A DNA stretch of 64,000 nt from Pseudooceanicola sediminis (GTDB taxonomy: Bacteria > Pseudomonadota > Alphaproteobacteria > Rhodobacterales > Rhodobacteraceae). Shown piece by piece: positions 9,289 to 62,806 of this stretch; within the stretch, counting starts at the first letter, position 1; each line of letters opens with the position of its first letter. The notes below the pieces were generated by a model. It searched no databases and was not told where the DNA came from. It saw nothing but the letters and a program-made list of their open reading frames with translations. The position numbers were made by a program, and so were the translations under genes. The DNA lies in assembly GCF_003575965.1 (NCBI RefSeq), contig NZ_QWJJ01000004.1:186001-250000 (forward strand). The letters run 5' to 3'.

Positions 9289-9332
9289 ATACCGACGTGA
9301 TACCGACACGGCACCGCTCGGATACCGCCCCC
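9289..9332 (+). repeat. Four-unit 11-bp tandem array (array A)
   Basis: Units ATACCGACGTG, ATACCGACACG, GCACCGCTCGG and ATACCGCCCCC follow each other without gaps. The ACCG core recurs at exactly 11-bp steps. The array lies between purL and bolA. It is one of four arrays of the same size in the window; here the ACGTG unit comes first rather than last. The function is unknown. Confidence 0.75.
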
Positions 9333-9442
9333 CCTTTTTGACCGCCCTTGGGCGCCATTCGAAGGGGGGGCAAAAACCACGGCTCTTGCGGACACACCCG
9401 GCAAGGCCTACATTTTCCACGACGACGAATACGGAGAGTTGC

Positions 9443-9676
9443 ATGTCAATTCAGGCCTCGGATATCGAAGCACTTATCCGCGAAAGCTTCCCCAATGCGC
9501 AGATCGAGGTGCAGGGCGACGATGGTGCCCATTTCTCGGCCATGATCGTGGACGAAAGCTTTCGTGGCAAGAACCGCGTCCAGCAGCAACGCGAGGTTTA
9601 TGCGGCGTTGAAGGGCAAGATGGACGGCCCCGCAGGCGAACTGCACGCCCTCGCCCTGACCACCCGCGCCCCCTGA
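9443..9676 (+). CDS. BolA family protein
   Basis: A 77-residue BolA/IbaG-type protein, partner of monothiol glutaredoxins in iron-sulfur trafficking and iron sensing in the cytoplasm. It has the compact BolA fold with the conserved helix/loop FRGKNRVQQQREVYAAL (residues 40-56) and terminal GELHALALTT. No cysteine is present; a conserved His (H66) near the C-terminus is the expected cluster ligand. The ATG at 9443 has a GGAGAG site. The CGFS glutaredoxin gene follows 130 bp downstream on the same strand, the classical BolA-Grx pairing, so the two products probably form a heterodimer with a [2Fe-2S] cluster. Confidence 0.92.
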   Translation: MSIQASDIEALIRESFPNAQIEVQGDDGAHFSAMIVDESFRGKNRVQQQREVYAALKGKMDGPAGELHALALTTRAP

Positions 9677-9806
9677 CAGGGCCCCGCCCGTCAGAGCGGT
9701 TTCAATTCGCGTGAAATGCGCTAGGATGGCCGCCATATCTGGCTGATCACGATCAAACGCGGACCGGCTGCCGCAGCCGCCGCGCCCGTCCAAACGGAGA
9801 CACCAA

Positions 9807-10169
9807 ATGACTGATGTTAAAGAAAAAATCTCTGACGTCGTAAAAGCAAACGACGTCGTTCTGTTCATGAAGGGCACTAAGGAAATGCCGCAATGCGGGT
9901 TTTCCAGCCGCGTCGCCGGGGTGCTCAACTACATGGGCGTGACCTATTCCGACGTGAACGTCCTGGCCGATGCAGACATTCGTCAAGGCATCAAGGATTA
10001 CTCCGACTGGCCCACCATTCCCCAGCTCTACGTCAAGGGTGAATTCGTCGGCGGCTGCGACATCATCACGGAAATGACCCTGTCGGGCGAACTCGACAGC
10101 CTGTTCGAGGAAAACGGCGTTTCCTACGACAAGGACGCCGCCGAAAAGATCCGCGCCGCCAACGGCTGA
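9807..10169 (+). CDS. grxD: Monothiol glutaredoxin (Grx4/GrxD type)
   Basis: A 120-residue single-domain CGFS glutaredoxin that carries a [2Fe-2S] cluster with glutathione and passes it to apo-proteins or BolA. The active site is C30-G-F-S, preceded by [10 protein letters not shown]; the glutathione-site elements [19 protein letters not shown] are intact. Length and sequence are standard for the family. The ATG is preceded by GGAGACACCAA. It follows bolA and is convergent with the MliC-like gene, whose stop lies 11 bp away. Confidence 0.96.
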
Positions 10170-10180
10170 CGCACCGGGGT

Positions 10181-10522
10181 TTATTCCTCGGTTTCACAGA
10201 AGGCGAAGAGGGTGACCTCTTCGCCTATGTCATTGTCAAACCAGTCAAGTTTGCCGGTGTTGCCCTTGCTCCACCAGACATACCCCGAGGTGTTCGGTGG
10301 CGTCATATAGCGCGCACCAGACCCCGACTCGGCGCGCTCCAGCGTGATCAGCTGCCCCTCGGCCCACAGCACCGCGACCGACGTGTCGCCGTTGATGTAG
10401 ACCACCGGGATCTGCACCCCGCGCTCGCAGGTATAGATCGCCCGGATCAGCGGGTTCTCCTGTGCCAAAAGCGGCCCGGACAGCCCCGAGAGCATCAGCG
10501 ACATCAGCGCAATTCGCAACAT
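10181..10522 (-). CDS. MliC-like secreted protein (putative lysozyme inhibitor)
   Basis: A 113-residue protein with a signal peptide (residues 1-20, ending LLA/QE). The mature part fits the MliC/PliC fold: YTCERG near the N-terminus (C32), a run of short beta strands (VVYINGDTSVAVLW), SGARYMTPPN, then VWWSKGNTGKLDW, with C109 placed to pair with C32. MliC proteins inhibit C-type lysozyme in the periplasm. There is no lipobox Cys, so it is likely soluble. I prefer the ATG at 10522 (AAGGTG six bases before it and a proper signal peptide) to the GTG at 10546. It lies directly downstream of zapA on the minus strand; inhibitor activity is inferred from the fold only. Confidence 0.78.
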   Translation of the reverse strand: MLRIALMSLMLSGLSGPLLAQENPLIRAIYTCERGVQIPVVYINGDTSVAVLWAEGQLITLERAESGSGARYMTPPNTSGYVWWSKGNTGKLDWFDNDIGEEVTLFAFCETEE

Positions 10523-10555
10523 ATTCAACACCTTATTGTCAGACACCTGCGCAGC

Positions 10556-10954
10556 TCAGCTCGCCGTGCCGCGCTCCTCCACCCGGTCGGCCAGCGCTTC
10601 GGCCTGTGCCGCCAGTTCAGCCAGCGTATCGGTCACGCTATTTGGGACCACCGGCACCTCGACACGCTGCGGCTCAGGCGGCGGGGCGCTTTTCAACGCG
10701 GTCAGCTCGGCCTTCAGCGCCGCGATCTCGTCTTCCAGCCCCTTGACCTTGTCTTCGACCCCGGCGGTCCGATCCGCCAGCATCAGGCCCGACATCAGCA
10801 ACATGCGGGTTTCGGGGATACGCCCGGTTTGTTCAACAAGAACAGAGGCTTCGCTGTCCAGCATCGCCGCCGCCGCCTGAAGAAACGCTTCCTCGCCCTC
10901 CTGGCAGGCGACATCAAACGTGCGGCCACCAACGGAAATTTCGACTTCAGGCAT
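10556..10954 (-). CDS. zapA: Cell division protein ZapA
   Basis: A 132-residue ZapA homologue, a cytoplasmic factor that bundles FtsZ filaments. The N-terminal part (VEISVGGRTFDVACQEGEEAFLQ...) is the ZapA globular domain; residues about 60-90 form the coiled coil (VEDKVKGLEDEIAALKAELTALK), and a Pro-rich linker and second helix follow. Its ATG shares one base with the stop of the coiled-coil gene upstream (TGATG), so the two are translationally coupled. The MliC-like gene follows 33 bp downstream. Confidence 0.9.
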   Translation of the reverse strand: MPEVEISVGGRTFDVACQEGEEAFLQAAAAMLDSEASVLVEQTGRIPETRMLLMSGLMLADRTAGVEDKVKGLEDEIAALKAELTALKSAPPPEPQRVEVPVVPNSVTDTLAELAAQAEALADRVEERGTAS

Positions 10955-11505
10955 CAGCTCTCTCCGGTTTCGGGATCAGTTTCGGGTTCTGCGACGAAGG
11001 GCGCCAGCGCGGCCAGAATAGCCTCGGCCTGCGCCTGTGCCGCGGCATGATCCGCCCGCAGGGCCTCCACTTCGGCCTCGACCGAGGCGCTCAGCAGGTC
11101 GGCCTCGACGCCGGCACCGCTGGCCAGCACGTCGCGCATCGCCCGGTTGTTTTCACGCAGATGCGCGTTCACGGCCCGCAACTTGTTGATTTCGTTTTCC
11201 ATCTGGCCAAGTGCGGCAATCACCTCGGCGGCGGTATCATCCACCGGCAGCACCGCTGGCGCGTTGCGCGCGGTCTCAAGCTCGGCCTCCAGCTCGTCCT
11301 GGCGCTCATGCAGAGCACGGACGCGCTCTTCCAGCTGGGCACTGACATAGCGCTCGTCCTCAAGCGCCTGCATCAGGTCTTCCACGCTTTCGCCCGGTGC
11401 GGCAGGTTCCGGCGCCTCCCTGACCGGCTCCAGCCCGTCAAGGCCCGCGCCTATGCGCTCCATCGCCGCAAGAATGCGGCCCTGCAAGTCTTCGAGATTA
11501 CTCAT
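10954..11505 (-). CDS. Coiled-coil protein upstream of zapA
   Basis: A 183-residue acidic protein that is not assigned to a named family. Residues 43-85 and 105-125 are strong heptad regions (DERYVSAQLEERVRALHERQ, LGQMENEINKLRAVNAHL) separated by a Pro/Asp linker, with a Pro/Glu-rich C-terminus. There is no signal peptide or membrane segment. Coupling to zapA by a TGATG overlap suggests a shared role at the division site, comparable to ZapB-like coiled coils in other bacteria; this is an inference from context. It is divergent from tkt. Confidence 0.75.
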   Translation of the reverse strand: MSNLEDLQGRILAAMERIGAGLDGLEPVREAPEPAAPGESVEDLMQALEDERYVSAQLEERVRALHERQDELEAELETARNAPAVLPVDDTAAEVIAALGQMENEINKLRAVNAHLRENNRAMRDVLASGAGVEADLLSASVEAEVEALRADHAAAQAQAEAILAALAPFVAEPETDPETGES

Positions 11506-11802
11506 CTGCCCTCATCAAACTGCGGCCAACCCGCGCAACTGTCCCGGCAACCACCGGAAAATCGCGATGCCAACCCTTGGTTCCGGCTGTCTTATCCCGG
11601 TCCGCGCGCACTTGCATCCGGGTTTTCATATCGTCCGGCGTCACGTGAAGCAATCCGCCCAGCCTTTTGACTTATCTGGCGAATCATAGGTCCAGGTTGA
11701 CATACGGCAAGTGTAGCGAATGCCCCGGACTTTCCCAAATAGCCCGCGTTTTCTGGCCGAAATGCCCGGCTCTGCTTGCCTTTCACTGTGCGGCTGATAA
11801 GA

Positions 11803-11813
11803 GCAGCGCTAAC
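11803..11813. promoter_or_regulatory. CceR-type operator half-palindrome upstream of tkt
   Basis: GCAGCGCTAAC, matching the right half and centre of GTTAGCGCTAAC (perfect copy at 15635). It lies 41 bp before the tkt start. The 348-bp region between the divergent coiled-coil gene and tkt shows no other gene. Confidence 0.5.
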
Positions 11814-11853
11814 ATTTCGGCTATCACCGCCCCCAGGACAGAGGAAACCTGCC

Positions 11854-13869
11854 GTGGATATTGACGCCCTGCGCTCCGCCCATCCCGAACATTGGTCCAA
11901 GGCCACCGCAATCCGCGCGTTGACCCTTGATGCCGTTGCCGCCGCCAATTCCGGTCACTCCGGGATGCCGATGGGCATGGCAGATGTCGCGACCGTGCTG
12001 TTCGAAAAGCACCTGAAATTCGACGCGAGCCAGCCGAACTGGCCGGACCGCGACCGTTTCATCCTGTCGGCGGGCCACGGCTCGATGCTGCTCTATTCCC
12101 TGTTGCACCTGACCGGCTACGAACAGTTCCCCATAGAAGAGCTGCGCAATTTCCGCCAGTGGGGCGCCCGCACCGCCGGCCACCCGGAAAACTTCCTGGC
12201 CGACGCAATCGAGACGACGACCGGCCCGCTGGGTCAGGGCCTGGCCAACTCGGTCGGCTTTGCCATGGCCGAGGAAATGCTGCGCGCCCAGTTCTCGAAA
12301 AAGGTCGTGGATCACCACACCTATGTCATCGCCGGCGACGGCTGCCTGATGGAGGGCGTCAGCCAGGAGGCGATCGCCCTTGCCGGGCGTCATGAACTCT
12401 CCAAGCTCATCGTCTTCTGGGACAACAACAATATCACCATCGACGGCACGGTAGACCTGTCCGACCGCACCGATCAGCCCCTGCGCTTCAAGGCGGCGGG
12501 CTGGCATGTGCAGGAAATCGACGGTCACGACCCCGAAGCGATCGACGCCGCGATCACGGCCGCCAAGAACGCCGGCAAGCCCTCGATGATCGCCTGCAAG
12601 ACCCATATCGCCCTGGGCCACGCCGCACAGGACACCTCCAAGGGCCACGGCGCGTTGACCAACCCCGATCAGATGGCCGCCGCCAAGGCCGCCTATGGCT
12701 GGACCAGCGGCGCGTTCGAAGTCCCCGCCGATGTCAAATCGGCGTGGGAAGCGATCGGCGCGCGCGGCGCGTCGGAATACACCGCATGGCAAGAGCGTTT
12801 CGCGGCCTTGTCCGAACGTCGCCAGGGCGAATTCAACCGCCGCCTTGCGGGCGAAGTGCCGAACAAGCTGGCCGCCGTCGTGCGCGCCCTGAAAAAGCAG
12901 GTTTCCGAAAGCCAGCCGAACGTCGCGACCCGCAAGGCGTCCGAAATGGCGCTTGAGGTGATCAACCCCGTGATGGACGAGACCGTCGGCGGATCGGCTG
13001 ACCTGACCGGCTCGAACAACACGCTCACGGCCGACCTCGGTGTCTTCGACGTCGACAACCGCAAGGGACGCTTCGTGCACTGGGGCATCCGCGAACACGG
13101 CATGGCCTCCGCGATGAACGGCATGGCGCTGCACGGCGGGCTAAAACCTTATTCGGGCACCTTCATGTGCTTTACCGATTATGCCCGCCCCGCGATGCGC
13201 CTGTCGGCGCTGATGCGCACCTCGACCATCTACGTCATGACCCACGATTCCATCGGCCTGGGCGAAGATGGCCCGACGCACCAGCCGGTCGAACACCTGG
13301 CGATGCTGCGCGCCACGCCCAACATGCTGGTGTTCCGCCCCGCCGATGTGGTTGAAACCGCCGAAGCGTGGGAACTGGCGCTCAGCCAGACAGGCACCCC
13401 GTCCACCCTGTCGCTGACGCGCCAGAACGTGCCGACGCTGCGCACGGATCACAAGAACAAGAACCTTTCGGCCCAGGGTGCCTACGTCATGGCCGATGCG
13501 ACCGGCAAACGTCAGGCGATCCTGCTGGCCACCGGCTCCGAAGTGGCCATCGCCATGGATGCCCGCGCGCTGCTGGAGGCCGAGGGCATCGGCACCCGTG
13601 TCGTCTCCATGCCCTGCTGGGAACTGTTCGAGGCGCAGGACGAAGCGATCCGCAAGCGCGTGCTGCCCGCCGGTCCTGTCCGCGTCGCGGTCGAGGCAGG
13701 CGTGCGCCTGGGCTGGGACAAGTGGCTGATGGGCGAACGCGGCCGCGAGGCCAAGTCGGCGTTCGTCGGGATGGAGGGCTTTGGTGCCTCTGCCCCTGCC
13801 GAAACGCTGTACGAAAAATTCGGCATCACCGCCGAGGCGATTGCCGAAAAGGTCAAGGCGCTGCTCTGA
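11854..13869 (+). CDS. tkt: Transketolase
   Basis: Transfers two-carbon units between sugar phosphates in the pentose phosphate and Calvin-type pathways, cytoplasmic, TPP- and metal-dependent. The 671-residue length is standard. Visible: substrate/TPP His in [10 protein letters not shown], the TPP motif [13 protein letters not shown]...[10 protein letters not shown], the pyrimidine-domain [13 protein letters not shown], and the phosphate-binding SLTRQN. I chose the GTG at 11854 because GAGGAAA lies 8 bases before it and family members begin DIDALR; the longer upstream frame is not family-like. It is followed by a strong terminator and then gap1 and gap2. The gene probably belongs to a carbon-metabolism regulon because of an operator-like sequence at 11803. 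Confidence 0.97.
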
Positions 13870-13890
13870 CGCACGACCGCACCGAATTGC

Positions 13891-13930
13891 AAAAGGCCGG
13901 GCAAGGGATCGTTTCCCCGCCCGGCCTTTT
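13891..13930 (+). terminator. Rho-independent terminator of tkt
   Basis: A 12-bp perfect stem AAAAGGCCGGGC/GCCCGGCCTTTT (13891-13902 with 13919-13930) with a 16-nt loop. The following 13931-14245 is C-rich and shows no gene. Confidence 0.8.
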
Positions 13931-14245
13931 CGCGTTTCACCCCCTTCACAGCTCCCCCCCCCTCTTCGCCATCGCGACACTCTGCGTTCCGGCAGGTCGC
14001 AGACCGTCCTTGCGGGGTCCGGCGTTTCGGAACTTCGGCGCCCCGCTCTTGCAGGATCCGGCTTTGCGCGTGCCGGCCTCTCGGTATTTCCCCATGACCC
14101 GGTTCCGGCGACGCCGCGCGCCGACGTGGCAGTTTGCCCCCGTCGCGAATGCGCCCTCTCACGATCCGGTCTTGCCACGCGCCGGCCGCGGAGGCGCCGA
14201 TACCGCGCCCGCGCCTTCGGCACGCAACGCCCGCCAAGGCGGCGT

Positions 14246-14289
14246 GCACCGTCCGGTTACCGCTCAGATACCGCCCAAATACCGACGTG
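14246..14289 (+). repeat. Four-unit 11-bp tandem array (array B)
   Basis: Units GCACCGTCCGG, TTACCGCTCAG, ATACCGCCCAA and ATACCGACGTG, no gaps. It lies between the tkt terminator and the operator cluster of gap1. Confidence 0.75.
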
Positions 14290-14351
14290 CCACTGCCGCG
14301 CCTCAATCCCGGAGATTCTCTTCCCGGGCGGTGCCCCCAACACCTCTCGAC

Positions 14352-14430
14352 CGTTGGCGCAAACTGTTAGCGCGAACCCTGCCCAAGGGTTAGCGCAACC
14401 ATTGAAAAACCGATGATGTTTCCGCTAACA
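14352..14430. promoter_or_regulatory. Cluster of four CceR-type operator copies upstream of gap1
   Basis: Four related half-sites or imperfect palindromes: CGTTGGCGCAAAC (14352), TGTTAGCGCGAAC (14365), GGTTAGCGCAACC (14388) and TTTCCGCTAACA (14419). They share the GTTAGCGC core with the perfect palindrome at 15635. The cluster ends 87 bp before gap1. Multiple copies suggest cooperative binding or repression by looping. Confidence 0.55.
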
Positions 14431-14516
14431 CTTTGTCCTTAAATAGAATTTTGTCTTACTCTTGCGACAACCCGCGTCTATAGACAGGGCCAAGCTGACA
14501 TGCAGGAGACATCGGG

Positions 14517-15521
14517 ATGACCATCACACTGGGGATCAATGGCTTTGGCCGTATCGGGCGTTGCACCCTTGCGCATATCGCCGAAGCCGCCCGCAACGAT
14601 GTCCATGTCGTCAAGATCAATGCCACCGGCCCGATCGAAACCAACGCGCATCTGCTGAAATACGACTCCGTGCACGGCCGCTTCGGGAACGAGGTCAAGG
14701 TCGCCGGCAATACGATGGACATCGGACGCGGCCCGATGGAAGTCTTTTCCACCTACGATCCGTCCGAACTGGATTGGGAAGGCGTCGACGTCGTGCTGGA
14801 ATGCACCGGCCAGTTCAACGACGGCATCAAGGCCAATATCCACCGTGAACGCGGGGCCAAGGCCGTACTGATTTCGGCCCCTGCGACCAACGTCTCGAAA
14901 ACGATCGTCTATGGCGTCAACCACCGCAGCCTGGTCGAGAGCGATACGGTCATCTCCAACGGATCCTGCACCACCAACTGCCTGGCGCCTCTGGCAAAGG
15001 TGCTGAACGACGCCATCGGCATCGAGAGCGGCATCATGACCACCATCCACTCCTACACCGGCGATCAGCCAACGATGGACCGCCGCCACAAGGATCTCTA
15101 CCGCGCCCGCGCCGCCGCGATGAGCCAGATTCCCACCTCGACCGGCGCCGCCAAGGCCATCGGCCTGGTCTTGCCGGAACTGGCCGGCAAACTGGATGGG
15201 TCCTCGATCCGCGTCCCGACGCCGAATGTGTCCTGCGTCGACCTGACGTTCATTGCGAAAAAAGACGTCACCGTGAACGACGTCAACGAAGTGGTGCGCG
15301 AAGCTGCCGCCGGCCACATGGGCCATGTTCTGGGTTATGACCCCGAACCCAAGGTTTCCATCGATTTCTGCCATACCGAACAAAGTTCGATCTTTGCGCC
15401 CGACCAGACCAAGGTCTCTGGCGGCCGTCTTGTGCGCGTGCTGTCGTGGTATGACAACGAATGGGGCTTTTCCTGCCGCATGGCCGATGTCGCCGCGGCC
15501 CTTGGTCACCTGCAACACTAA
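14517..15521 (+). CDS. gap1: Glyceraldehyde-3-phosphate dehydrogenase, predicted NADP- or dual-specific
   Basis: A 334-residue type I GAPDH. The Rossmann motif INGFGRIGR is at residues 7-15, the catalytic SCTTNC at 150-155 has C151, and the general base is H178. The residue that normally binds the NAD ribose (Asp in ...VNDL) is Ala36 here (VKINATGP), as in the NADP-using Bacillus GapB. The usual Leu-Pro after DQxxxD is replaced by Arg-Arg (189-190). These changes suggest NADP or dual cofactor use and a gluconeogenic or anabolic role; this is inferred, not shown. The ATG has CAGGAGACATCGGG upstream. The next gene, gap2, is a second GAPDH with the normal Asp. Confidence 0.93.
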   Translation: MTITLGINGFGRIGRCTLAHIAEAARNDVHVVKINATGPIETNAHLLKYDSVHGRFGNEVKVAGNTMDIGRGPMEVFSTYDPSELDWEGVDVVLECTGQFNDGIKANIHRERGAKAVLISAPATNVSKTIVYGVNHRSLVESDTVISNGSCTTNCLAPLAKVLNDAIGIESGIMTTIHSYTGDQPTMDRRHKDLYRARAAAMSQIPTSTGAAKAIGLVLPELAGKLDGSSIRVPTPNVSCVDLTFIAKKDVTVNDVNEVVREAAAGHMGHVLGYDPEPKVSIDFCHTEQSSIFAPDQTKVSGGRLVRVLSWYDNEWGFSCRMADVAAALGHLQH

Positions 15522-15539
15522 GCTGTCCATGCGTCCATG

Positions 15540-15573
15540 AAGGGCCTGCCAGAGGTATTCTGGCGGGCCCTTT
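15540..15573 (+). terminator. Terminator-like hairpin after gap1
   Basis: A 14-bp stem (15540-15553 with 15559-15572, one wobble pair) with loop GGTAT; only three T follow, so termination may be partial. Confidence 0.6.
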
Positions 15574-15634
15574 GTCGTTTGGGCACGCACCTCTTGACCT
15601 TTAGCCCCAAAGGGTGGATTTTCAGGCCAAACGT

Positions 15635-15646
15635 GTTAGCGCTAAC
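15635..15646. promoter_or_regulatory. Perfect CceR-type palindrome upstream of gap2
   Basis: GTTAGCGCTAAC, a perfect 12-bp palindrome 43 bp before the gap2 start. It matches the binding site I recall for CceR, a LacI-family regulator of central carbon and energy metabolism in Rhodobacter sphaeroides. Confidence 0.7.
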
Positions 15647-15688
15647 CTGCAAAACACCCGCCTCTGCGCGGAAGAAAGGAACAGGATC

Positions 15689-16696
15689 ATGGTCACCACT
15701 GTCGCGATTAACGGGTTCGGTCGCATCGGGCGCAACGTGCTGCGCGCCATCGCTGAAAGCGGCCGCACCGATATAGAAGTCGTCGGCGTCAACGATCTGA
15801 CGTCGGTTGAAACCAATGCCCACCTGTTTCGCTATGACAGCGTGCATGGCCGTTTCAACGGCGAAGTAAAGACCGGCGACGACTGGATGGACATGGGGCA
15901 GGGCAAGATCAAGGTCACCGCCATCCGCAACCCCGAGGAGCTGCCCTGGAAGGGCGTCGACGTGGCGCTGGAATGCACCGGCTTTTTCACCAAGCGTGAC
16001 ACGGCAGCGCGCCACCTTGAAAACGGGTCGGCCCGCGTCCTGGTTTCGGCCCCCTGCACCGACGCCGACGTCACTGCCGTCTACGGTGTCAACCATGGCT
16101 CGGTAACCTCGGATCACATGGTGATCTCGAATGCGTCCTGCACCACGAACTGCCTGTCCCCGGTGGCCAAGGTGCTGAACGACACCGTCGGGATCGAACA
16201 TGGCTTCATGACGACGATCCACTCCTACACCGGCGATCAGCCGACGCTGGACCGGGCACACTCTGACCTCTACCGCGCCCGTGCTGCGGCGATGTCGATG
16301 ATCCCGACATCGACAGGTGCTGCAAAGGCGGTCGGCCTGGTTCTGCCCGAGCTCAAGGGCAAGCTCGACGGCGTCGCAATCCGCGTCCCCACGCCCAACG
16401 TCTCCTGCGTCGACTTGACGTTCACCGCCTCGCGCGAAACCACCGCAGAAGAAATCAACGCGGCCCTGGTCAAGGCGTCGGAATCCGGCCCCCTCAAAGG
16501 GATTCTGGGTGTGACGACCGAAAAACTGGTGTCGGTCGACCTCAACCATGATCCGCGATCCTCGACCGTGGCGCTGGACCAGACCAAGGTCATCGGCGGC
16601 ACCATGGTGCGCATCCTGTCATGGTATGACAACGAATGGGGCTTTTCCAACCGCATGGCCGACATGGCCGGCGTCGTTGGCGGGTTGATCCGCTAA
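15689..16696 (+). CDS. gap2: Glyceraldehyde-3-phosphate dehydrogenase, NAD-type
   Basis: A 335-residue type I GAPDH, the glycolytic enzyme that oxidises glyceraldehyde-3-phosphate to 1,3-bisphosphoglycerate. INGFGRIGR is at residues 7-15, Asp36 in VGVNDLTS is the NAD-specific ribose ligand, and SCTTNC holds the catalytic Cys near residue 152. The ATG at 15689 is chosen for its AAAGGAACAGG ribosome site; longer upstream frames add non-family residues and run through the operator. It is closely related to gap1 just upstream (about the same length, shared RVPTPNVSCVDLTF), so the pair probably arose by duplication, with cofactor divergence at residue 36. Confidence 0.95.
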   Translation: MVTTVAINGFGRIGRNVLRAIAESGRTDIEVVGVNDLTSVETNAHLFRYDSVHGRFNGEVKTGDDWMDMGQGKIKVTAIRNPEELPWKGVDVALECTGFFTKRDTAARHLENGSARVLVSAPCTDADVTAVYGVNHGSVTSDHMVISNASCTTNCLSPVAKVLNDTVGIEHGFMTTIHSYTGDQPTLDRAHSDLYRARAAAMSMIPTSTGAAKAVGLVLPELKGKLDGVAIRVPTPNVSCVDLTFTASRETTAEEINAALVKASESGPLKGILGVTTEKLVSVDLNHDPRSSTVALDQTKVIGGTMVRILSWYDNEWGFSNRMADMAGVVGGLIR

Positions 16697-16737
16697 GATA
16701 AGACCCTGACTTGCAAGTTCCCTGTTTCGTATCGCTG

Positions 16738-16768
16738 CCCCGCCCGCAAAACCTGCGGTCGGGGTTTT
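16738..16768 (+). terminator. Rho-independent terminator of gap2
   Basis: Stem 16738-16748 with 16754-16764 (ten pairs, one internal mismatch), loop AAACC, then TTTT. Confidence 0.6.
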
Positions 16769-16846
16769 CCTTTGCCTTGAAATACGCGTCTTGCCCAATC
16801 CTTTGCCCTGGGCAATGATCACGACACTCAGGATGCAGAGGCCGCA

Positions 16847-16990
16847 ATGACCAACACGACCGCGATCGTCCTCAGCGCGCTCATCCTGGCGGGGTTGGGT
16901 GCCGATGCGGTCCTTGCCGATGGCACATACAGCCTGTTCCTGCTGCGCAAGATGTCCGTCTTTCTGGAATGGATTGCCTTCTGGCGCTAG
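16847..16990 (+). CDS. 47-residue membrane peptide downstream of gap2
   Basis: MTNTTAIVLSALILAGLGAD, then a short polar stretch, then SLFLLRKMSVFLEWIAFWR. Residues 5-20 form one hydrophobic helix and residues 29-46 a second amphipathic-to-hydrophobic helix ending in FWR, so it is probably an inner-membrane hairpin or single-span peptide. I recall similar peptides downstream of gap genes in other Rhodobacteraceae, sometimes labelled as GAPDH only because of position; it has no GAPDH sequence. The ATG follows GCAGAGGCCGCA, a weak GAGG site. It lies between the gap2 terminator and the hydrolase gene. Function unknown. Confidence 0.72.
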   Translation: MTNTTAIVLSALILAGLGADAVLADGTYSLFLLRKMSVFLEWIAFWR

Positions 16991-17045
16991 ACAGCCCAGT
17001 TTCGGCCCAGGACGGACCCAGCCCAAGACATCCAGGACGGACTGA

Positions 17046-18008: not shown

Positions 18009-18011
18009 GGG

Positions 18012-18503: not shown

Positions 18504-18641
18504 GAGGGGCTCTCCACGGGTTTTGCCTTTGCCGCACGCAACAATATTGCGCATCCGATTGCAAGGGGCGACTTGAAACTTTCACGTCTCAATACCCCAA
18601 ACGCCACCCGGGTGCATCACGCAACACCCCTGCCCGACATG

Positions 18642-18669: not shown

Positions 18670-18700
18670 CGGCTGTTTCACCGCCCCGTCAAGGGACGGC

Positions 18701-40775: not shown

Positions 40776-40819
40776 ACACCGTTCAGATACCGTTTCGAAA
40801 CCGTCAGGATACCGACGTG
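40776..40819 (+). repeat. Four-unit 11-bp tandem array (array C)
   Basis: Units ACACCGTTCAG, ATACCGTTTCG, AAACCGTCAGG and ATACCGACGTG. The ACCG core repeats at exactly 11-bp steps. It ends 135 bp before the DUF455 gene. Confidence 0.8.
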
Positions 40820-40954
40820 GCTTTTCTTTGGTTTCAATGACTTGCACAGGTCATACCGCCCCGCACCGACGTCCCCCACCGACGCGCGCCCTAGCCTCAC
40901 TGGCACACAGCCTCTTCCCCCACCGGCATATGCCCCGAATGACAGAGATCCCAA

Positions 40955-55243: not shown

Positions 55244-55280
55244 CACAGCCCTCCCGCACCTGTCATGTTTCCCTGTCGGA

Positions 55281-55336
55281 AATATCCTCGGGGGTGAATT
55301 GCGCGTCCCGCGCAAGAGGGGGCAGACAGCCCCCTC
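55281..55336 (+). repeat. Two-hairpin intergenic repeat, copy 3
   Basis: Leader AAATATCCTCGGGGG, variable hairpin TTGCGCG-tcc-CGCGCAA (55299-55315) and constant hairpin GAGGGGGC-agaca-GCCCCCTC (55316-55336). It lies in the 112 bp between cysS and cimA, inside the presumed cysS-cimA transcript, and could act as terminator or attenuator. Confidence 0.7.
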
Positions 55337-55355
55337 TCACCACTCTCAAGTCGCG

Positions 55356-56792
55356 TCATGCCAGCCCCTCCAGCCTGGCCACATCAAAGTCCGGCCCCGC
55401 CAGCAGCTCGACCCCGGCCTTCGACATCCGCACCTCGACACCCGCCGCGATCAGACCCGCCTTGAGGGCATCGACACGAGAGAAATCCTTGCTCTCCATC
55501 GCCTCGGCCCGTGCCTCGCTCAAGGCGATCTGCAGCGCCGAAAGATCCACATCCGGCGACGTCGCCCAAGATCCCAGATCTGGAAGAAGAAGACCGAGAA
55601 GGTTGGCACTTGCTACGAACTCGGCCTCGATATCGTGCGCAGTTCGGGCAAGATCGGGAACCTGATGCTCCTCCCAATATTGATGTTGCTTCAACTCATC
55701 CGCCATGGTCCGCAGCCAATAAAGCGCTTTGGATGTGTTCAGATCATCCCCGAGGTCACGAAGCATAAGCGCGCTCGGCTCCGCCGCAGCAACACCTGTC
55801 AGCAGGCCACGCCACTTCCGCAACGTCGCCTCTGCCTCGGCACGCTTCTTCTCGGTCCAGTCCATCGGCTTGCCGTAATGCGTGCCCAGGAACACCATCC
55901 GGATCACCTCTCCCGGCACGCCCTGATCCAGCAGATCGCGCACGGTAAAGAAGTTGCCCAGCGACTTGGACATCTTCTTGCCCTCGACCTGCAGCATCTC
56001 GTTATGCAGCCAGTATTTCGCAAATTCCCCCTCGGGGTGCGCACAGCAGCTCTGGGCGACCTCGTTCTCGTGGTGGGGAAATTGCAGGTCGATCCCGCCG
56101 CCGTGAATATCGAAACTCTCGCCCAACAGCTCATAGCTCATGGCCGAGCATTCGATATGCCAGCCGGGACGCCCCCGCCCCCAGGGGCTGTCCCAACCGG
56201 GCAGCTCATCTGACGAGGGTTTCCACAGCACGAAATCCATCGGATCACGCTTGTAGGGCGCCACCTCGACCCGCGCACCGGCGATCATGTCCTCGACAGT
56301 GCGCCCCGACAGTGCGCCGTAATCTGCATAAGAGCCGACGGAAAACAACACGTGCCCCTCGGCCGCATAGGCATGGCCCCCTGCGATCAGACGCTCGATC
56401 ATCGCGACCATCTGCGGGATGAACTCGGTCGCGCGCGGCTCCATATCCGGGCGCAGCGTGCCAAGCGCCTCCATGTCGGCATGATACCAGCCGATCGTCT
56501 CGTCCGTGATCTCGCGGATTGAACGGCCGTCCCGCGCCGCGCGCGCGTTGATCTTGTCGTCGACGTCGGTAAAGTTGCGGACGTAAGTTACCTTGCCCCA
56601 ACCATTTTCTTTCGCCGCGTGGCGCAGCAAACGGTACAGCACATCGAACACCACCACTGGCCGGGCATTGCCCAGATGCGCGCGATCATAGACGGTCGGG
56701 CCGCAGACATACATGCGCACATCCCGTTTATCGAGCGGGACAAAGGTTTCCTTCGTCCGGGTGCGCGAATTGTGCAGCTTGATCTCGACCAT
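55356..56792 (-). CDS. cysS: Cysteine--tRNA ligase
   Basis: Charges tRNA-Cys in the cytoplasm. 478 residues. [15 protein letters not shown] holds the HxGH variant [12 protein letters not shown] the KMSKS loop, and zinc ligands are C in YVCGP, C in HIECSAM and H/E in HHENE. The ATG at 56792 follows GAGGAACG. cimA follows downstream on the same strand, 112 bp away. There is no sign of frameshift or fusion; an anticodon-binding DALR domain ends the protein ([11 protein letters not shown]...). Confidence 0.97.
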
Positions 56793-57027
56793 CTCACGTT
56801 CCTCTCGGTCATGCCTGACAGGCAAGCGGGTGCGCAGGCGGCTTAGCAGGATCGTTGGAAGTTGGAAACGAAGAAGCCGCCCGCGAGGTTATCTCAGCAG
56901 GGAATAATGCAACGGGGAATGATGCAGGCTTTCCGGTTCATGCCCCGTGGATAAAGCGGCGCCGGGAATTTGCCAAGCGTTCTTTGCGCGCCCGCCCCTG
57001 CCCTGGCGCATCGGCCGCTGCGATGGG

Positions 57028-57792
57028 TCACAGTCGGCCCACAGCAACAGCCCGCGCCCAATCCTCGCGCCCGTTGGAGCGGGCGCGTGCGACCATGTCA
57101 CGGGTATCGTAGAGCACGTGATGATGCGCCACATGCCACCCCGCCCCGTCCCGCGACACCAGCGCCCAGGTCGCCGCCGGGGTGCGCGTTTCGACCTTGT
57201 GCGGCACCGGGGTCGTGTCGTCATAGGCCGGGCATCCGACCGAGCCTGGATTCAGCAACACCTGGCCCCCGGGCAGATGCCAAAGCGTCGGCAGATGCGT
57301 ATGGGCACACAATAGCAACGACGCTGTCACCCCGCGCGCCCATTCCGCAACCTCCTCGATCCCGCGCGGCAGCAGGTTGCCTGCGGCATCGACCCGATGT
57401 GTCCAATAGACATCATCCGCCAGCGGTGTCGCATGGCAGGCCCAGACATCGCCGAAATCCAGCACCTCGGGAAGCTCCGCCACCCACGCAAGCGCAGCCG
57501 CGTCCAGGGCATCGAAGGCGACCTGGTCAGAGGGCCCCATCCGGGCGCGGTCCTGCTCCAGCAAATAGCGGTCGTGGTTCCCACGCAGGCAATATGCCGG
57601 CAGGCCGAGCAGGTGCGCCGCCGTCCCGGCCGGGTCCAAAGGGCCTGAAAAATGGTCACCCAGCACCAGGACGGACGACACGCGATACCGCGCAATGTCA
57701 TCCAGAACAGCCCGCAACGCACTGGAATTGCCGTGAATATCAGCCAGAACCGCAAAGCGGGCAGGAAGCGGAGGGGCAACGCGTGTTTTCAT
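57028..57792 (-). CDS. Metallophosphoesterase (YfcE/DUF-type)
   Basis: A 254-residue calcineurin-like phosphoesterase. Metal motifs: FAVLADIHGNSSAL (DxH), VLVLGDHFSG (GDH), LRGNHDRYL (GNHD), CHATPLADD, and LCAHTHLPTLW (HTH). All two-metal ligands appear intact, so it should be active; the substrate is unknown, but such enzymes act on phosphodiesters or on Ap4A/nucleotides. The ATG at 57792 is preceded by TGTTATC only, no strong ribosome site. It is divergent from the following gene. Confidence 0.88.
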   Translation of the reverse strand: MKTRVAPPLPARFAVLADIHGNSSALRAVLDDIARYRVSSVLVLGDHFSGPLDPAGTAAHLLGLPAYCLRGNHDRYLLEQDRARMGPSDQVAFDALDAAALAWVAELPEVLDFGDVWACHATPLADDVYWTHRVDAAGNLLPRGIEEVAEWARGVTASLLLCAHTHLPTLWHLPGGQVLLNPGSVGCPAYDDTTPVPHKVETRTPAATWALVSRDGAGWHVAHHHVLYDTRDMVARARSNGREDWARAVAVGRL

Positions 57793-57911
57793 GATAACAG
57801 CGTGGCGTTGCCACAGCACGGCTGGCAAGCGGAAAATCCTTGCGCTGGCAGGCATATTGCTGGACCGTCCCTGCGACCGATTGCGACGATCTGTGAAGAA
57901 GGAGGCATCAC

Positions 57912-58736
57912 ATGCATGATCCCGGCCCCGCGTTTCGCGCGTTGCACCAGCCCGGAACACCCTTTGTCCTTGCCAATGCCTGGGATATCGGCTCGGCCAG
58001 GATGCTGGCCGCCCTGGGGGCCCAGGCCATTGGCACATCCTCTGCCGCCTTCGCCTTTACGCTCGGCAAACCCGACGGGCAGGTCACGCGGGACGAAGCA
58101 CTGGCGCACGCCGAAAGCATCGTTGCGGCTACGGAGCTTCCCGTCTCGGGTGATTTCGAAAACGGCTATGGCGACGATCCCGATACGGTGGCCGAAACTG
58201 TCCGGCTTGCCTGCGAGGCCGGTCTGGCGGGACTCTCGATAGAGGATACGCTGTCCGGCGCGACCGGATCCTATGAGCGCGACCTGGCGGTTGAACGCAT
58301 CCGCGCAGCGGCGTCCGCCGCGCGTTCGCTTCCCCGTGATTTCATGCTGGTGGCCCGCGCCGATGGTGTCATGCTCGACACCTATGATATCGAGGAAGCA
58401 CTGGCGCGCCTGGCCGGGTTCGAAGAGGCGGGGGCAGATTGCCTCTACGTGCCCGCGCCCCCCAGTTTTGAAGACCTGCAACGCATCTGTGAGAGTACCA
58501 CTCTGCCGGTCAACGCACTGACCGTCGGGACGCTGGCGAGCTATACGCTTGAGGATTTTGCCCGCATCGGCGTGGCACGGATCTCGCTCGGCTCGTCTCT
58601 GGCGCGTGTGACACATCGTGCCATCATCGACGCCATGAGCGAGGTGTTCGAAGATGGCAGTTTCTCGCGTCTGAAAAAATCCGTTTCGGGCGGCGAAATC
58701 GACCAGATGCTGATCGCGGGTGCCACCAAGGCCTGA
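57912..58736 (+). CDS. Isocitrate lyase/PEP mutase family protein
   Basis: A 274-residue TIM-barrel protein of the PEP mutase/isocitrate lyase superfamily. Features: FVLANAWDIGSARMLAALGAQAIGTSSAAFAF, metal site DFENGYGDDPDTVAETV, and GLSIEDT. It lacks the KKCGH active-site loop of isocitrate lyase; members with this sequence are usually 2,3-dimethylmalate-, oxaloacetate- or carboxyphosphonoenolpyruvate-type C-C lyases or decarboxylases, so the reaction is not certain. The ATG follows GGAGGCATCAC. Terminated at 58773. Confidence 0.87.
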   Translation: MHDPGPAFRALHQPGTPFVLANAWDIGSARMLAALGAQAIGTSSAAFAFTLGKPDGQVTRDEALAHAESIVAATELPVSGDFENGYGDDPDTVAETVRLACEAGLAGLSIEDTLSGATGSYERDLAVERIRAAASAARSLPRDFMLVARADGVMLDTYDIEEALARLAGFEEAGADCLYVPAPPSFEDLQRICESTTLPVNALTVGTLASYTLEDFARIGVARISLGSSLARVTHRAIIDAMSEVFEDGSFSRLKKSVSGGEIDQMLIAGATKA

Positions 58737-58772
58737 GGCCCGGCCGCGACATTTCCATGGCTCCGCAGACAG

Positions 58773-58801
58773 AACGGGCGCGCCAATGGCACGCCCGTTT
58801 T
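58773..58801. terminator. Terminator between the PEP-mutase-like gene and ppiA
   Basis: Stem ACGGGCG-c-GCC with GGC-a-CGCCCGT (58774-58798, one mismatch), loop AAT, then TTTT. It serves the convergent genes. Confidence 0.7.
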
Positions 58802-58835
58802 CGTTTTCCCAGCGAACCGGCTTAGCCGGTCACGA

Positions 58836-59396
58836 TTACTCGGTCACAGTGACTTTCGTCATGACATCGGGCGCACCGATGACTGCGCCGTTGGCACCTT
58901 CGCCACGTTTGATCTGATCGACCACATCCATACCGTCAGTCACCTCTCCGACGACCGTATACTGGCCATTCAGGAAATCACCGGGGGCGAACATGATGAA
59001 GAACTGCGAATTCGCCGAATCCGGGCTTTGCGACCGGGCCATGCCGACCGTACCGCGCTGAAACGGCTTGTCCGAAAATTCAGCGGCGATGTCGGGCAGG
59101 TCGCTGCCCCCACGGCCTGCCATGCTCATGTCGCCGCCGGTCTTGCCGTACTGAACGTCACCGGTTTGCGCCATGAAGCCATCGATCACGCGGTGAAACA
59201 CCACGCCATCATAAGCGCCCTGTTCGGCAAGAGTGGTGATCTGGGCGACATGTTTGGGCGCGACATCATCGAACAAATCGACGTGGACGGTGCCGTTGGC
59301 GGCACCCTCGACCTCAATGTCCAGACCGGTCGCGCCCGCCTGCCCTGCCAATGCGGCAAAGCCTGCGGTCGCCAGTGCGGTTGCCAGCTTACGCAT
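58836..59396 (-). CDS. Periplasmic peptidyl-prolyl cis-trans isomerase (cyclophilin)
   Basis: A 186-residue cyclophilin with a signal peptide (residues 1-22, GQAGA/TGLD), so it is probably periplasmic, where it assists folding of exported proteins. Catalytic features: [15 protein letters not shown] (R and F), [10 protein letters not shown] (Q, F), [11 protein letters not shown]. The ATG at 59396 lies inside the stop of the upstream cyclophilin (8-bp overlap), indicating translational coupling. It is paralogous to that gene. Confidence 0.93.
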
Positions 59397-59895
59397 CTGC
59401 CGCAACCTTGACCGAAATCATCACGTCGGGCTGCGCAGGCGGCTCGCCACGGGTGATGGCATCGACATGCTCCATGCCTTCGATGACACGGCCGTAGACG
59501 GTATACTGACCGTTCAGAAAGCTGTTGTCCTTGAAGTTGATGAAGAATTGCGAATTTGCCGAGTTCGGGTTCTGGCTGCGCGCCGCGCCCAGGGTGCCGC
59601 GCTCGTGCGGCAGCTTGGAGAATTCGGCCGGAAGGTCGGGCAGATCAGACGACCCTGTACCGGCCATGCGCAGGTTGAAATCGCCGGTCGAATTGCCATG
59701 CGCAACGTCACCCGTCTGCGCCATGAACCCGTCGATCACGCGGTGGAACACCACCCCGTCATAAGAGCCGGCGCGCGCCAGCTCCTTCATCCGTTCGGCG
59801 TGCTTGGGGGCGACGTCCGCCAGCAGCTCGATCACGACGGTACCGCCCTTGAGCTCCATCAGGATGGTGTTTTCGGGATCCTTGATTTCGGCCAT
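59389..59895 (-). CDS. Cytoplasmic peptidyl-prolyl cis-trans isomerase (cyclophilin B type)
   Basis: A 168-residue cyclophilin without signal peptide. Catalytic features: [44 protein letters not shown]. The ATG at 59895 has AAGGAGAG eight bases before it. It is divergent from pgk (126 bp) and overlaps the periplasmic cyclophilin by 8 bp. The long frame open across this region on the same strand, up to 61962, is antisense to pgk and not a gene. Confidence 0.94.
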
Positions 59896-60021
59896 TTGTC
59901 TCTCCTTACTCATGTTTGCGCCAGCAATAGGGATATGCAGGGCAATTGCCAAGTAACCCGTGTTGACCGGAGGGCGCGAAGCCGCCAGAACTTGGGGCAA
60001 CTGACACAAGGAGTGGGACGC

Positions 60022-61191
60022 ATGGGCTGGAAAACGCTGGACGACATGGAACTTGACGGCAAACGGGTGCTGACCCGCGTGGATATCAACGTTCCTGTCG
60101 AGGATGGCAAAGTCACCGACGCCACCCGGATCGAGCGAATCGTGCCGAGCGTGCAGTACATCCTGGAACAAGGCGGCAAGGTTCTGATGCTGGCGCACTT
60201 CGGCCGCCCGAAAGGCAAGGTCGTGCCCGAGATGAGCCTGCAAGTGGTGCTGCCCGCCCTGGAGCAGGCACTCGGTCAGAAGGTCGCCTTTGCCGAAGAC
60301 CTGGAGGCCGCAGAGGGGCTGGAACAGGACATTATCCTGCTGGAAAACATTCGCTTTTGGCCGGGCGAGGAAAAGAACGATGCAGAATTCGCCAAAAGGC
60401 TCGCCAGCCTGGGCGATGTCTACTGCAACGACGCGTTTTCCGCAGCTCACCGTGCTCATGCCAGCACCGAGGCGCTGGCGCGCGAGCTGCCGGCCTGCGC
60501 CGGTCGGCTGATGCAGGCCGAACTGGAAGCCCTGGAAACCGCGCTCGGGGATCCGGTGCGACCCGTGATCGCGGTCGTCGGCGGGGCAAAGGTTTCGAGC
60601 AAGCTGGAGCTGCTGGGCAACCTTGTCTGCAAGGTCGACCGGCTGGTGATCGGCGGCGGCATGGCCAACACGTTCCTGGCGGCGCAGGGTATCGACGTCG
60701 GGAAATCGCTGGCCGAACATGACATGACGGAAACGGCGAAGCAGATCCAGATGAAGGCGCTGGATGTCGGCTGCGAAATCATCCTGCCCGCCGATGTCGT
60801 CGTCGCCCGCGAGTTCAAGGCCAATGCCGAGAGCGAGACCGTTCCGGCGACGCAATGTCCGGCGGATGCGATGATTCTGGACGCGGGGCCGGACAGTGTG
60901 CTGCGTCTGACGGCCGCGTTCGAAGCCTCCAAGACCTTGATCTGGAACGGTCCCCTGGGCGCCTTCGAGATCGAGCCGTTCAACGCCGCGACGGATGCGG
61001 CGGCACTGAAGGCAGCCGAGCTGACGAAGGCCGGCAAGCTGGTGTCGGTTGCAGGTGGCGGTGATACGGTGGCGGCGCTGAATGCCAGCGGCGCGGCCGA
61101 AAGCTTCAGCTATATCTCGACCGCAGGGGGCGCGTTCCTGGAGTGGATGGAGGGCAAGACCCTGCCCGGCGTTGCCGCTCTGGGGGGCTGA
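60022..61191 (+). CDS. pgk: Phosphoglycerate kinase
   Basis: Interconverts 1,3-bisphosphoglycerate and 3-phosphoglycerate with ADP/ATP, cytoplasmic. 389 residues. [12 protein letters not shown] is the family's DFNVP region with Ile in place of Phe; [29 protein letters not shown] and the phosphate-binding GGGDTVAAL follow. The ATG at 60022 has AAGGAG eight bases before it; a longer frame reaches far upstream and overlaps ppi genes antisense. fba follows on the same strand. Confidence 0.96.
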
Positions 61192-61221
61192 AACACGCAG
61201 CCATCGCGGGATCTGCCCTCC

Positions 61222-61232
61222 GTTAGCGCAAC
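61222..61232. promoter_or_regulatory. CceR-type operator half-palindrome upstream of fba
   Basis: GTTAGCGCAAC, near the core of the perfect palindrome at 15635, 98 bp before the fba start and 30 bp after the pgk stop. A weaker related stretch, ATTGCGCTGTCG, lies at 61247. Confidence 0.5.
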
Positions 61233-61329
61233 CTGAATTGCATGAAATTGCGCTGTCGCTTAGACATGGGGAAAAGGTCGCGGAGGCGCTGCGGCCTGCA
61301 ACCAACCCCATTACTTCAGGCGATTGCAA

Positions 61330-62253
61330 ATGACGGAAACGACCCAGGCCGAATTGGTACGTGCCGACGCAGCCATGGCAGAACAGATGCGCAGCGGCGA
61401 CGGTTTCATCGCGGCGCTTGACCAGAGCGGCGGCTCGACTCCAAAGGCGCTCAAGCTGTATGGCATTGAAGAGGATGCCTATTCCTCGGATGCCGAGATG
61501 TTTTCGCTGATGCACCAGATGCGGGCGCGGATCATCAAGAGCCCGGCCTTCAACGGTGAAAAGGTCATCGGCGCGATCCTGTTCGAGCGGACCATGGACG
61601 GCGACATCGACGGAGTTCCGACCGCGAAATACCTGTGGGAAGAAACCCACGTCGTGCCTTTTCTGAAGGTCGACAAGGGGCTGGACGACGCGGCGGATGG
61701 TGTGAAGCTGATGAAACCGATGCCGGACCTGGATGCCCTGTGCCAGCGCGCGGTGTCCAAGGGAATCTTCGGGACCAAGATGCGCAGCGTCGTGGATGCG
61801 GCGAACCCGGTCGGCATCAAGAAGATCGTCGATCAGCAGTTCGAGGTCGGGATGCAGATCCTGAGCCATGGTCTGATGCCGATCCTGGAACCCGAAGTGA
61901 CCATCACCATTGCCGACAAGGCCGAAGCCGAGGACCTGCTGCGCGACGAGATCCTGGCGCATCTGGACGCCCTGCCCGCCGGTGTCGAAGTGATGCTGAA
62001 GCTGTCAATCCCGGAAAAGGTGAACCAGTACAAGGCGTTAATCGACCATCCCGCGGTGATGAAGGTGGTGGCGCTGTCGGGCGGATACGAGCGGCAGGAT
62101 GCCAATGCGCGCCTGTCAAAACAGACGGGCATGATCGCCAGCTTCTCGCGTGCGCTGACCGAGGGGCTGTCCGCCCAGCAGGCGGATGCGGAGTTCGATG
62201 CGACCCTGGCCGAAACCATCGACGGCATTTACCAGGCATCTGTCGCGGGCTGA
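61330..62253 (+). CDS. Class I fructose-bisphosphate aldolase
   Basis: Splits fructose-1,6-bisphosphate to triose phosphates by a Schiff-base lysine, without metal. 307 residues, of the bacterial/vertebrate-like class I family. Features: [44 protein letters not shown] (Lys region), and [27 protein letters not shown]. The ATG at 61330 has no good ribosome site (CAGGCGATTGCAA); a TTG at 61324 is possible. It follows pgk by 138 bp and has its own operator-like sequence. Confidence 0.9.
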
Positions 62254-62276
62254 GAGCTGCGATCATCGTCGTGTGG

Positions 62277-62301
62277 AAAGGGGCGTTTTGCGCCCCTTTT
62301 T
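62277..62301 (+). terminator. Rho-independent terminator of fba
   Basis: AAAGGGGCG (62277-62285) and CGCCCCTTT (62291-62299) with loop TTTTG, then T residues: 9-bp perfect stem. Confidence 0.85.
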
Positions 62302-62405
62302 GCTTGTCTGAAAATATGGGATTCCCTTGGCGAATCGCTTGTGGCATGGTGGCCGCGTAACGCCCGTCAGAGGCGCAGGCCCAGATGTGGGCTATGAGGC
62401 AGACC

Positions 62406-62705
62406 ATGATCAGTGACAGCCGCCCGCCGTTCGGGCTTTTCCTTTATTTCGCCGCCGTCCTCATGTTGGGGATGTATTTCACCTTTGCCGCCGTGCAAGG
62501 GGAATACGGGTTGTTCAAACGGGCGGTCGTGCAGGCCGACAACACCCGGCTGCAATCGCAGCTGGATGCCCTGAAGGGACAGATCTCGGTCATGGAGAAC
62601 CGCACGCGGCGGCTGTCGGATGGATACCTCGATCTGGATCTGCTGGACCAGCAGGCCCGGGACGTTCTGGGGCTGGTGCGCGGTGACGAGTTCGTCCTGC
62701 GCTGA
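62406..62705 (+). CDS. ftsB: Septum formation initiator FtsB family
   Basis: A 99-residue bitopic divisome protein: one membrane helix (residues about 9-28, LFLYFAAVLMLGMYFTFAAVQ), then a coiled coil (QADNTRLQSQLDALKGQISVMENRTRRL) and an LDLLDQQARDVLGL tail typical of FtsB/DivIC. The likely start is ATG 62406 (GAGG six bases before it); in-frame ATGs at 62385 and 62394 are alternatives. It lies between the fba terminator and pdhA on the same strand. Confidence 0.9.
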   Translation: MISDSRPPFGLFLYFAAVLMLGMYFTFAAVQGEYGLFKRAVVQADNTRLQSQLDALKGQISVMENRTRRLSDGYLDLDLLDQQARDVLGLVRGDEFVLR

Positions 62706-62762
62706 GCGGATGTCGGTATCCGCGGGCCAGACACCCGCAACCTATTGATTCAGCTAAATTCC

Positions 62763-62806
62763 AACGTCGGTATCAGGGCGGTGTCCGAGCGGTATCTGAA
62801 CGGTGT
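62763..62806 (-). repeat. Four-unit 11-bp tandem array (array D, inverted)
   Basis: Read on the minus strand the units are ACACCGTTCAG, ATACCGCTCGG, ACACCGCCCTG and ATACCGACGTT, in the same order as arrays B and C; the first unit is identical to the first unit of array C. Confidence 0.8.

Follow-up and report, generated by a model that had tools for sequence, protein, structure and literature searches.

What kind of element is formed by the four short repeat arrays scattered over a 64,000-nucleotide stretch of the Pseudooceanicola sediminis genome (contig NZ_QWJJ01000004.1, positions 186,001 to 250,000; below, the window, whose own numbering is used throughout), and what could such an element be for? 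The arrays, denoted W1 to W4, are located at 9289–9332, 14246–14289 and 40776–40819 on the forward strand and at 62763–62806 on the reverse strand, as reported in a preliminary description based on the sequence, and each is indeed a gapless row of four 11-bp units that share ACCG at one fixed position, 44 bp in total. The sequence ATACCGACGT ends three of the arrays and starts the first one, W1. We suggest, with a probability of about 0.5, that the arrays are chromosome-wide binding sites of one predicted trans-acting DNA-binding protein, here called X, acting away from promoters. This suggestion builds on direct observations, namely the arrays themselves, the number of units, fixed downstream parts in this species, placement relative to genes, recurrence beside the same genes, and uneven distribution among genomes. 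The downstream parts, a class of arrays with flanking GTTAAC motifs, the gene-end placement and the uneven species distribution go beyond the preliminary description.

The arrays are numerous outside the window as well. In the genome to which it belongs (G000; 4.44 Mb in 54 contigs), the search pattern of four ACCG cores at 11-bp steps yields 101 matches, and the same pattern read backwards, used as a control, yields none; for three cores the respective counts are 250 and 5. In the window itself, the three-core pattern with 11-bp steps gives 8 matches, two overlapping ones in each array, and the expectation from 100 dinucleotide-preserving shuffles is 0.04. One hundred of the 101 four-core matches were used and produced 96 distinct arrays, 92 with four units and 4 with five. 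Among 21 three-core runs from 20 fetched places, a fourth core follows at a 12-bp step in 15 and is absent in 6; together with the 92 four-unit arrays, the runs completed in this way make four units the rule. Slipped replication, named as an alternative in the preliminary description, can produce short tandem units, but slippage alone leaves arrays beside the same genes in different genera (see below) unexplained, and given the excess over both the reversed control and the shuffles, an origin by chance or slippage is hardly credible.

The four units are not interchangeable. The letter preceding ACCG is C in 74 of the 96 first units and T in 69, 84 and 92 of the second, third and fourth units, respectively, and the same polarity, with unit 1 unlike units 2 to 4, is seen as a tendency in other sampled genomes. 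In the 88 G000 arrays whose last unit reads ACCGAC, the spacers are position-specific and come from a small set, the commonest being TTCAG and TTCGG in unit 1, CTCGG, CTCAG and TACAG in unit 2, TTCAG, TTCAA and TCAAG in unit 3, and ACGT plus one letter in unit 4. The information content of these arrays is about 64 bits per 44 bp, of which about 29 bits come from the cores fixed by the search; the contribution of unit 4 is partly due to the way in which the 88 arrays were selected. Units of the ATACCGACG[CT][AG] type predominate in most of the other genera seen, and the sister species G016 has a spacer set of its own. A sub-type ATACCGACG[CT]AGGCACCGACGT, with the next core at a 12-bp step, is found at loci L259, L263, L267, L269, L020, L025 and L091; L259 and L263 carry two arrays each, 129 and 92 bp apart. 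Genomes G191, G221 and G260 contain 14, 20 and 16 matches, respectively, to the reversed control pattern of four GCCA words 11 bp apart, possibly another family of 11-bp arrays or minisatellites.

All four window arrays lie between genes, as had been noted, and genome-wide this holds for 94 of 96, the G000 genes having been called with a home-made codon model that makes visible errors (it puts the first window genes on the wrong strand), so that some neighbour strands may be wrong. Two G000 arrays are not intergenic. One of them (L032) is situated in the linker of an intact mutL, between the two C-terminal Pfam domains, and the mutL linker of genome G001 also contains an array (L107); the other one (L036), without the usual last unit, may be a chance match. 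In G314, from another genus, a complete array (L219) is contained inside the purL reading frame, and W1 is located just after the PurL-type gene of the window. For 91 arrays with both neighbours known, the gap is convergent in 30 cases, tandem in 52 and divergent in 9, while array-free placements in the same data are 9.6% convergent, 60.9% tandem and 29.5% divergent (chi-square p 1.4e-14). On the downstream side, 55 arrays face the 3′ end of a reverse gene, 27 of them within 80 bp, and 37 face the start of a forward gene, 5 of them this close. On the upstream side, 59 arrays have a forward gene ending next to them (12 within 80 bp) and 34 have a reverse gene starting there (4 within 80 bp). 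Hence, convergent gaps are enriched and divergent ones depleted. Intrinsic terminators were counted with no control, and no claim is drawn from the counts: for the 27 right-hand reverse genes ending within 80 bp, none stands before the array and 6 stand beyond it, and for the 27 ending at 81–400 bp, 11 stand before the array.

This placement bears on the possibility that the arrays are ordinary operators of an OmpR/PhoB-type transcription factor and mark its regulon. Sites of this family (ArcA, PhoB, CenR) are also direct repeats about 11 bp apart: according to PMC3798270, ArcA sites have two to five units, mostly three to five, mainly at an 11-bp centre-to-centre distance, and CenR of Rhodobacter is described as using TGA-N8-TGA (PMC9275681). 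Moreover, some arrays are close to start codons and recur there, as in the cases of lpdA and chorismate mutase. Family sites, however, vary in number and serve promoters, whereas the arrays have four units as a rule, hold about 60–71 bits in 44 bp (about 29 from the cores fixed by the search), avoid divergent gaps, lie within 80 bp of the end in 27 of 55 right-hand reverse genes but within 80 bp of the start in only 5 of 37 right-hand forward ones, and occur inside the mutL and purL reading frames. The neighbours of the window arrays are housekeeping genes, and no self-regulated regulator stood out among the neighbour families shared between genomes in a sample of 92 G000 loci (without the four window arrays), 22 G016 loci, 15 G015 loci and smaller sets from other genomes. 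We therefore regard the operator explanation as quite improbable.

The preliminary description also mentioned a structured RNA. An RNA element in untranslated regions would agree with what is seen in other genera, where several arrays separate consecutive genes of an operon, at a distance of a few bases from the stop and start codons, mostly in the sense orientation (no formal count was made). In G000, however, tandem gaps contain arrays in both orientations (28 ++ and 24 −−), and four class A stretches fold like their shuffles (z from −0.30 to 0.61), with no hairpin. No Rfam family matches at the window arrays, and we consider the RNA explanation very unlikely.

The positions of many arrays are shared between species. 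Thirteen of the 22 fetched arrays of the sister species G016 occupy the same junction as a G000 array; in these 13 pairs, picked for strict cores on both sides, 16 of 16 core letters agree, and spacer letters agree in 63.2%. The surrounding DNA is 73% identical within 60 bp on either side (1073/1560 positions aligned) and 86% identical at a distance of 200–700 bp (11018/13000 positions aligned), both alignments being gapped and without a random control. Three of the pairs have TTAAC-type flanks on both members. The spacer agreement of orthologues exceeds that of wrongly paired arrays (54.8%, permutation P 0.0012) and is similar to the 62–63% observed within each species, which indicates that a locus retains something of its own spacer sequence, although the spacers within one species change in concert. 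Of 15 fetched G015 arrays, 7 share the same-side flanking gene with a G000 array, and 3 of these share both flanking genes. The region upstream of lpdA contains three to five cores in a row in G000, G016, G001 and G015, a looser row in G019, and four cores in G146 from another genus; in the other 17 species inspected, no core row was seen there by eye. The gap between the GNAT and chorismate mutase genes contains an array in six genera.

Further copies do exist in relatives, but very unevenly. Of the 23 genomes examined in the genus, seven have four-core matches (101 in G000, then 104, 88, 16, 6, 2 and 1), with 0 in the other 16; three TACCG cores are found in 5 of the 23 (121, 72, 56, 10 and 9 matches), with 0 in the other 18. 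At least one four-core match is present in 32 of 394 genomes of the family: ten, including G000, have at least 10 matches, up to 113, and the others have 1 to 5, some of the single matches being other repeats. None were found in 24 genomes from other families of the class. Since intermediate copy numbers occur, the distribution is strongly uneven, not strictly all-or-none. The array-rich species include G000, G016, G015, G327 and G287, and G012, G003, G010, G014 and G022 are relatives that lack arrays. Scanning of 84,980 species genomes with the exact four-unit pattern gave 20 stretches (records close to the window’s genome may be left out), and the titles of their records name only Roseovarius, Shimia, Pseudooceanicola, Sulfitobacter, Rhodobacteraceae, Paracoccaceae or Rhodobacterales; Roseovarius tolerans DSM 11457 and Shimia aestuarii DSM 15283 are among them. 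In the lpdA tree, array-bearing species are scattered among array-free ones (a single gene, 22 lpdA sequences and an outgroup, which joined inside the genus). One contig filed as viral in IMG/VR (L252) carries bacterial genes, among them a carB-like and an autoinducer-synthase-like one, as we name them from their translations; we saw no evidence for a phage origin among its genes, and the contig looks misfiled.

In about half of G000 arrays, an additional part is observed at a fixed distance downstream. The integration host factor (IHF)-like motif [AT][AT]TCA[AG]NNNNTT[AG], searched for at +8 to +34, begins 12 bp 3′ of the array in 51 of 96 cases, and in the 300 bp flanking the arrays on each side it recurs at just five further places. 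In 21 of 96 arrays, a match to WATCARNNNNTTR, which we take to be the strict IHF consensus, begins between +10 and +19, compared with a window background of 0.00016 per 10 bp per strand. Among the 51 motif-bearing arrays, a further xCCGAY core follows the last core at a distance of 54 bp in 25 cases and of 44 bp in 9; W3 and W4 show both the motif and a further core. The two distances differ by about one DNA turn, as would be expected if a bend returns the fifth unit to the row. A promoter reading of the downstream tail was set aside in a by-eye judgement.

A second class of arrays is flanked by GTTAAC, which in G000 occurs about 30 bp before the array in 11 of 96 cases and 20–29 bp after it in 5 of 96. 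In the window and fetched loci (340 kb in total, a few loci overlapping slightly), 36 of 42 GTTAAC and 10 of 10 GCGTTAAC occurrences lie within 150 bp of arrays, this zone covering 10% of bases. GTTAAC is present at matching offsets before 4 and after 4 of the 26 G016 and G001 arrays, and among 60 arrays from other genomes, 5 have it at −80 to −61 and 4 at +20 to +29. Arrays of G015 and G017 have another type of end: in 8 of 20 (e.g., L157, L163, L167), an inverted core TCGGT or TCGGC is located 13 bp past the last core, making the end partly palindromic.

The uneven copy number and the species-specific additions could also be produced by a mobile or selfish repeat resembling repetitive extragenic palindromic (REP) elements, spreading to gene ends and homogenised by gene conversion, with no benefit for the host. 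The gene-end placement resembles that of REP elements, copy number varies from 0 to 113 between genomes, spacers from one species resemble each other more closely than do those of non-orthologous copies from the two sister species, and neither the IHF-like part nor the fifth unit is common outside one species. On the other hand, more than half of the G016 arrays sampled stand at junctions shared with G000, and some positions are common to several genera. The arrays are direct repeats, with no hairpin in the four folded elements, and the REP-type transposase family PF01797 was found in 1 of 12 array-bearing genomes (G197) and in 0 of 12 others. Such a selfish repeat is thus conceivable but, in our opinion, unlikely.

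Binding by a protein in a row is known from ParR and MraZ, and the arrays resemble the targets of these proteins, which form oligomers on several direct repeats about one turn apart; for the arrays, the oligomer is predicted. MraZ, shown to bind direct repeats in this way (PMC5282649), was considered as the binder and rejected, as all 38 genomes tested encode it, whether or not they have arrays, and the 200 bp upstream of mraZ contain no array in six array-bearing genomes (G411, G222, G197, G314, G327 and G306; the mraZ starts of the remaining genomes, including G000, were not placed). In G314, one array is situated about 0.7 kb upstream of mraZ.

We thus return to a dedicated protein X. The fixed 11- and 12-bp steps, the polarity and the number four suggest four subunits or modules in a row, and the location away from divergent promoters, the occasional array within a reading frame and RNA folding no better than that of shuffles suggest action on DNA. 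X would occupy four successive units as a head-to-tail row on one helix face; in about half of G000 copies, IHF would bend the DNA just downstream and could return the fifth unit onto the row, while in a smaller class a GTTAAC-reading protein would bind at the flanking positions. We infer the looped complex, IHF binding and function along with X itself. The complex would form mostly after genes, avoiding divergent promoter gaps, which makes nucleoid organisation or a transcription or supercoiling boundary likelier than promoter switching; given this placement and the likely action at the DNA level, we favour a chromosome-wide binding site organising the nucleoid or bounding transcription. Sister species with many arrays or none, inherited positions, fixed cores and concerted drift of spacers would be consistent with one losable trans-acting factor. 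The preliminary description had proposed cooperative protein binding on one DNA face. As judged from the sequences, a protein of this kind fits best the steps, the polarity, the orthologous cores kept amid diverged DNA, and the IHF-like motif at a fixed offset with a unit at 44 or 54 bp; that part of the proposal stands, the binding itself being a prediction.

Several observations weigh against this reading. The binder was not found among the candidates examined, that is, MraZ and the regulators among shared neighbour families. With low copy numbers in G017, G001 and several further genera, presence is not strictly all-or-none, and the differences in copy number also fit a mobile element; if the copies were spread by gene conversion, those within one genome are not independent. 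The core identity of the G016 and G000 pairs is partly by construction. Outside the species of G000, the IHF-like motif and the fifth unit are scarce: the motif is found at +10 to +19 in just 2 of 26 G016 and G001 arrays and in a single one of the 60 arrays sampled in G015, G017 and other genera, and the unit at 54 bp in 1 of 22 G016 arrays. Some arrays are just upstream of operon-internal start codons, which a boundary function does not predict. Finally, the G016 arrays are spaced little more evenly than expected at random (P 0.054) and their orientation has no arc bias (P 0.10), both tests using 99 positions from 104 matches and a genome length rounded to 4.4 Mb.

Among the known systems compared, the closest functional parallel appears to be RIB/BIME-1 of Escherichia coli (BIME, bacterial interspersed mosaic element; RIB, reiterative IHF BIME), and the closest site architecture that of ArcA. 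As described in PMC2817692, RIB/BIME-1 are IHF-binding repeats at the 3′ ends of transcription units, and REP/BIME elements bind several proteins, with suggested roles in chromosome organisation and termination. Like RIB/BIME-1, the arrays are dispersed short gene-end elements with an IHF-like site, here predicted from the sequence and rare in other genomes; like REP/BIME elements generally, they are extragenic, present in many copies and enriched in convergent gaps. Unlike these elements, which contain palindromic REPs tied to a transposase family, the arrays are four direct repeats, and membership in REP/BIME fails because of the lack of a palindromic hairpin and of a REP-type transposase in 11 of 12 array-bearing genomes. 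In PMC12306157, the role of REP gene-end elements is still called unclear. No description of the arrays was found in the open-licence literature searched. Phage lambda attP arms provide one more arrangement of this type, in which direct repeats stand side by side and are followed by an IHF bend and a distal site. The arrays likewise combine adjacent direct repeats, an IHF-like motif and a distal unit; unlike attP, they are present in about a hundred copies, and neither a core site nor an integrase was noticed, no search being aimed at either.

A broader interpretation, which we put forward tentatively and consider rather doubtful as a whole, would join these features in an undescribed nucleoprotein system of Rhodobacteraceae. 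A dispensable protein of four modules or subunits would have position-specific spacer preferences, its drifting specificity would carry about a hundred sites in concert, and loss of the protein would lead to joint decay of the sites; IHF and the GTTAAC-reading protein would give two looped forms serving as nucleoid anchors or transcription boundaries. If the proposal of a binding site for X is true, the arrays are a chromosome-wide architectural or boundary element with X behind it. A species with about a hundred sites beside array-free close relatives, with the sites drifting together, constitutes a natural experiment: comparison of the gene content of array-rich and array-free sisters should lead to the protein, and its removal would show the role of a gene-end element.

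In the window, with neighbouring genes named by Pfam, W1 (9289–9332, +) consists of ATACCGACGTG, ATACCGACACG, GCACCGCTCGG and ATACCGCCCCC, with the ACGTG unit first, and is located between the PurL-type and BolA-type genes; an array is found at the same place in G016 (L114). W2 (14246–14289, +), between the transketolase and GAPDH genes, is composed of GCACCGTCCGG, TTACCGCTCAG, ATACCGCCCAA and ATACCGACGTG and has no IHF-like tail. W3 (40776–40819, +), of class A, lies between the AhpC/TSA-type and DUF455 genes and comprises ACACCGTTCAG, ATACCGTTTCG, AAACCGTCAGG and ATACCGACGTG. It is followed at offset +12 by a looser form of the IHF-like motif, TTTCAATGACTTG (40832–40844, +), and by further cores at 40853–40868 (+), ATACCG at 44 bp and CACCG at 54 bp from the last core. 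W4 (62763–62806, −), also of class A, with units ACACCGTTCAG, ATACCGCTCGG, ACACCGCCCTG and ATACCGACGTT, faces the 3′ end of the DivIC-type gene, is situated upstream of the E1 dehydrogenase gene, and has a counterpart at the same junction in G016. Its IHF consensus match AATCAATAGGTTG (62738–62750, −) fits WATCARNNNNTTR at offset +12, and its fifth unit ATACCGACATC (62709–62719, −) has the core 54 bp from the last core of W4.

Some other features were noted besides the arrays. No tRNA was found in the window, and the sole Rfam match is to RF02784 (SorX, the singlet oxygen resistance RNA) at 4225–4288, with 55.2 bits. The palindrome ATACCGACGTCGGTAT, with at most 2 mismatches, is present at 26 places in G000. 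A second dispersed repeat, at 62889–62960 around ataccccgggggagtcagcc...ggctgacgggggcagcgccccc, is GC-rich and contains an inverted repeat; it has many matches across genomes of the genus, including array-free ones, and a similar stretch is observed upstream of lpdA in many of them.

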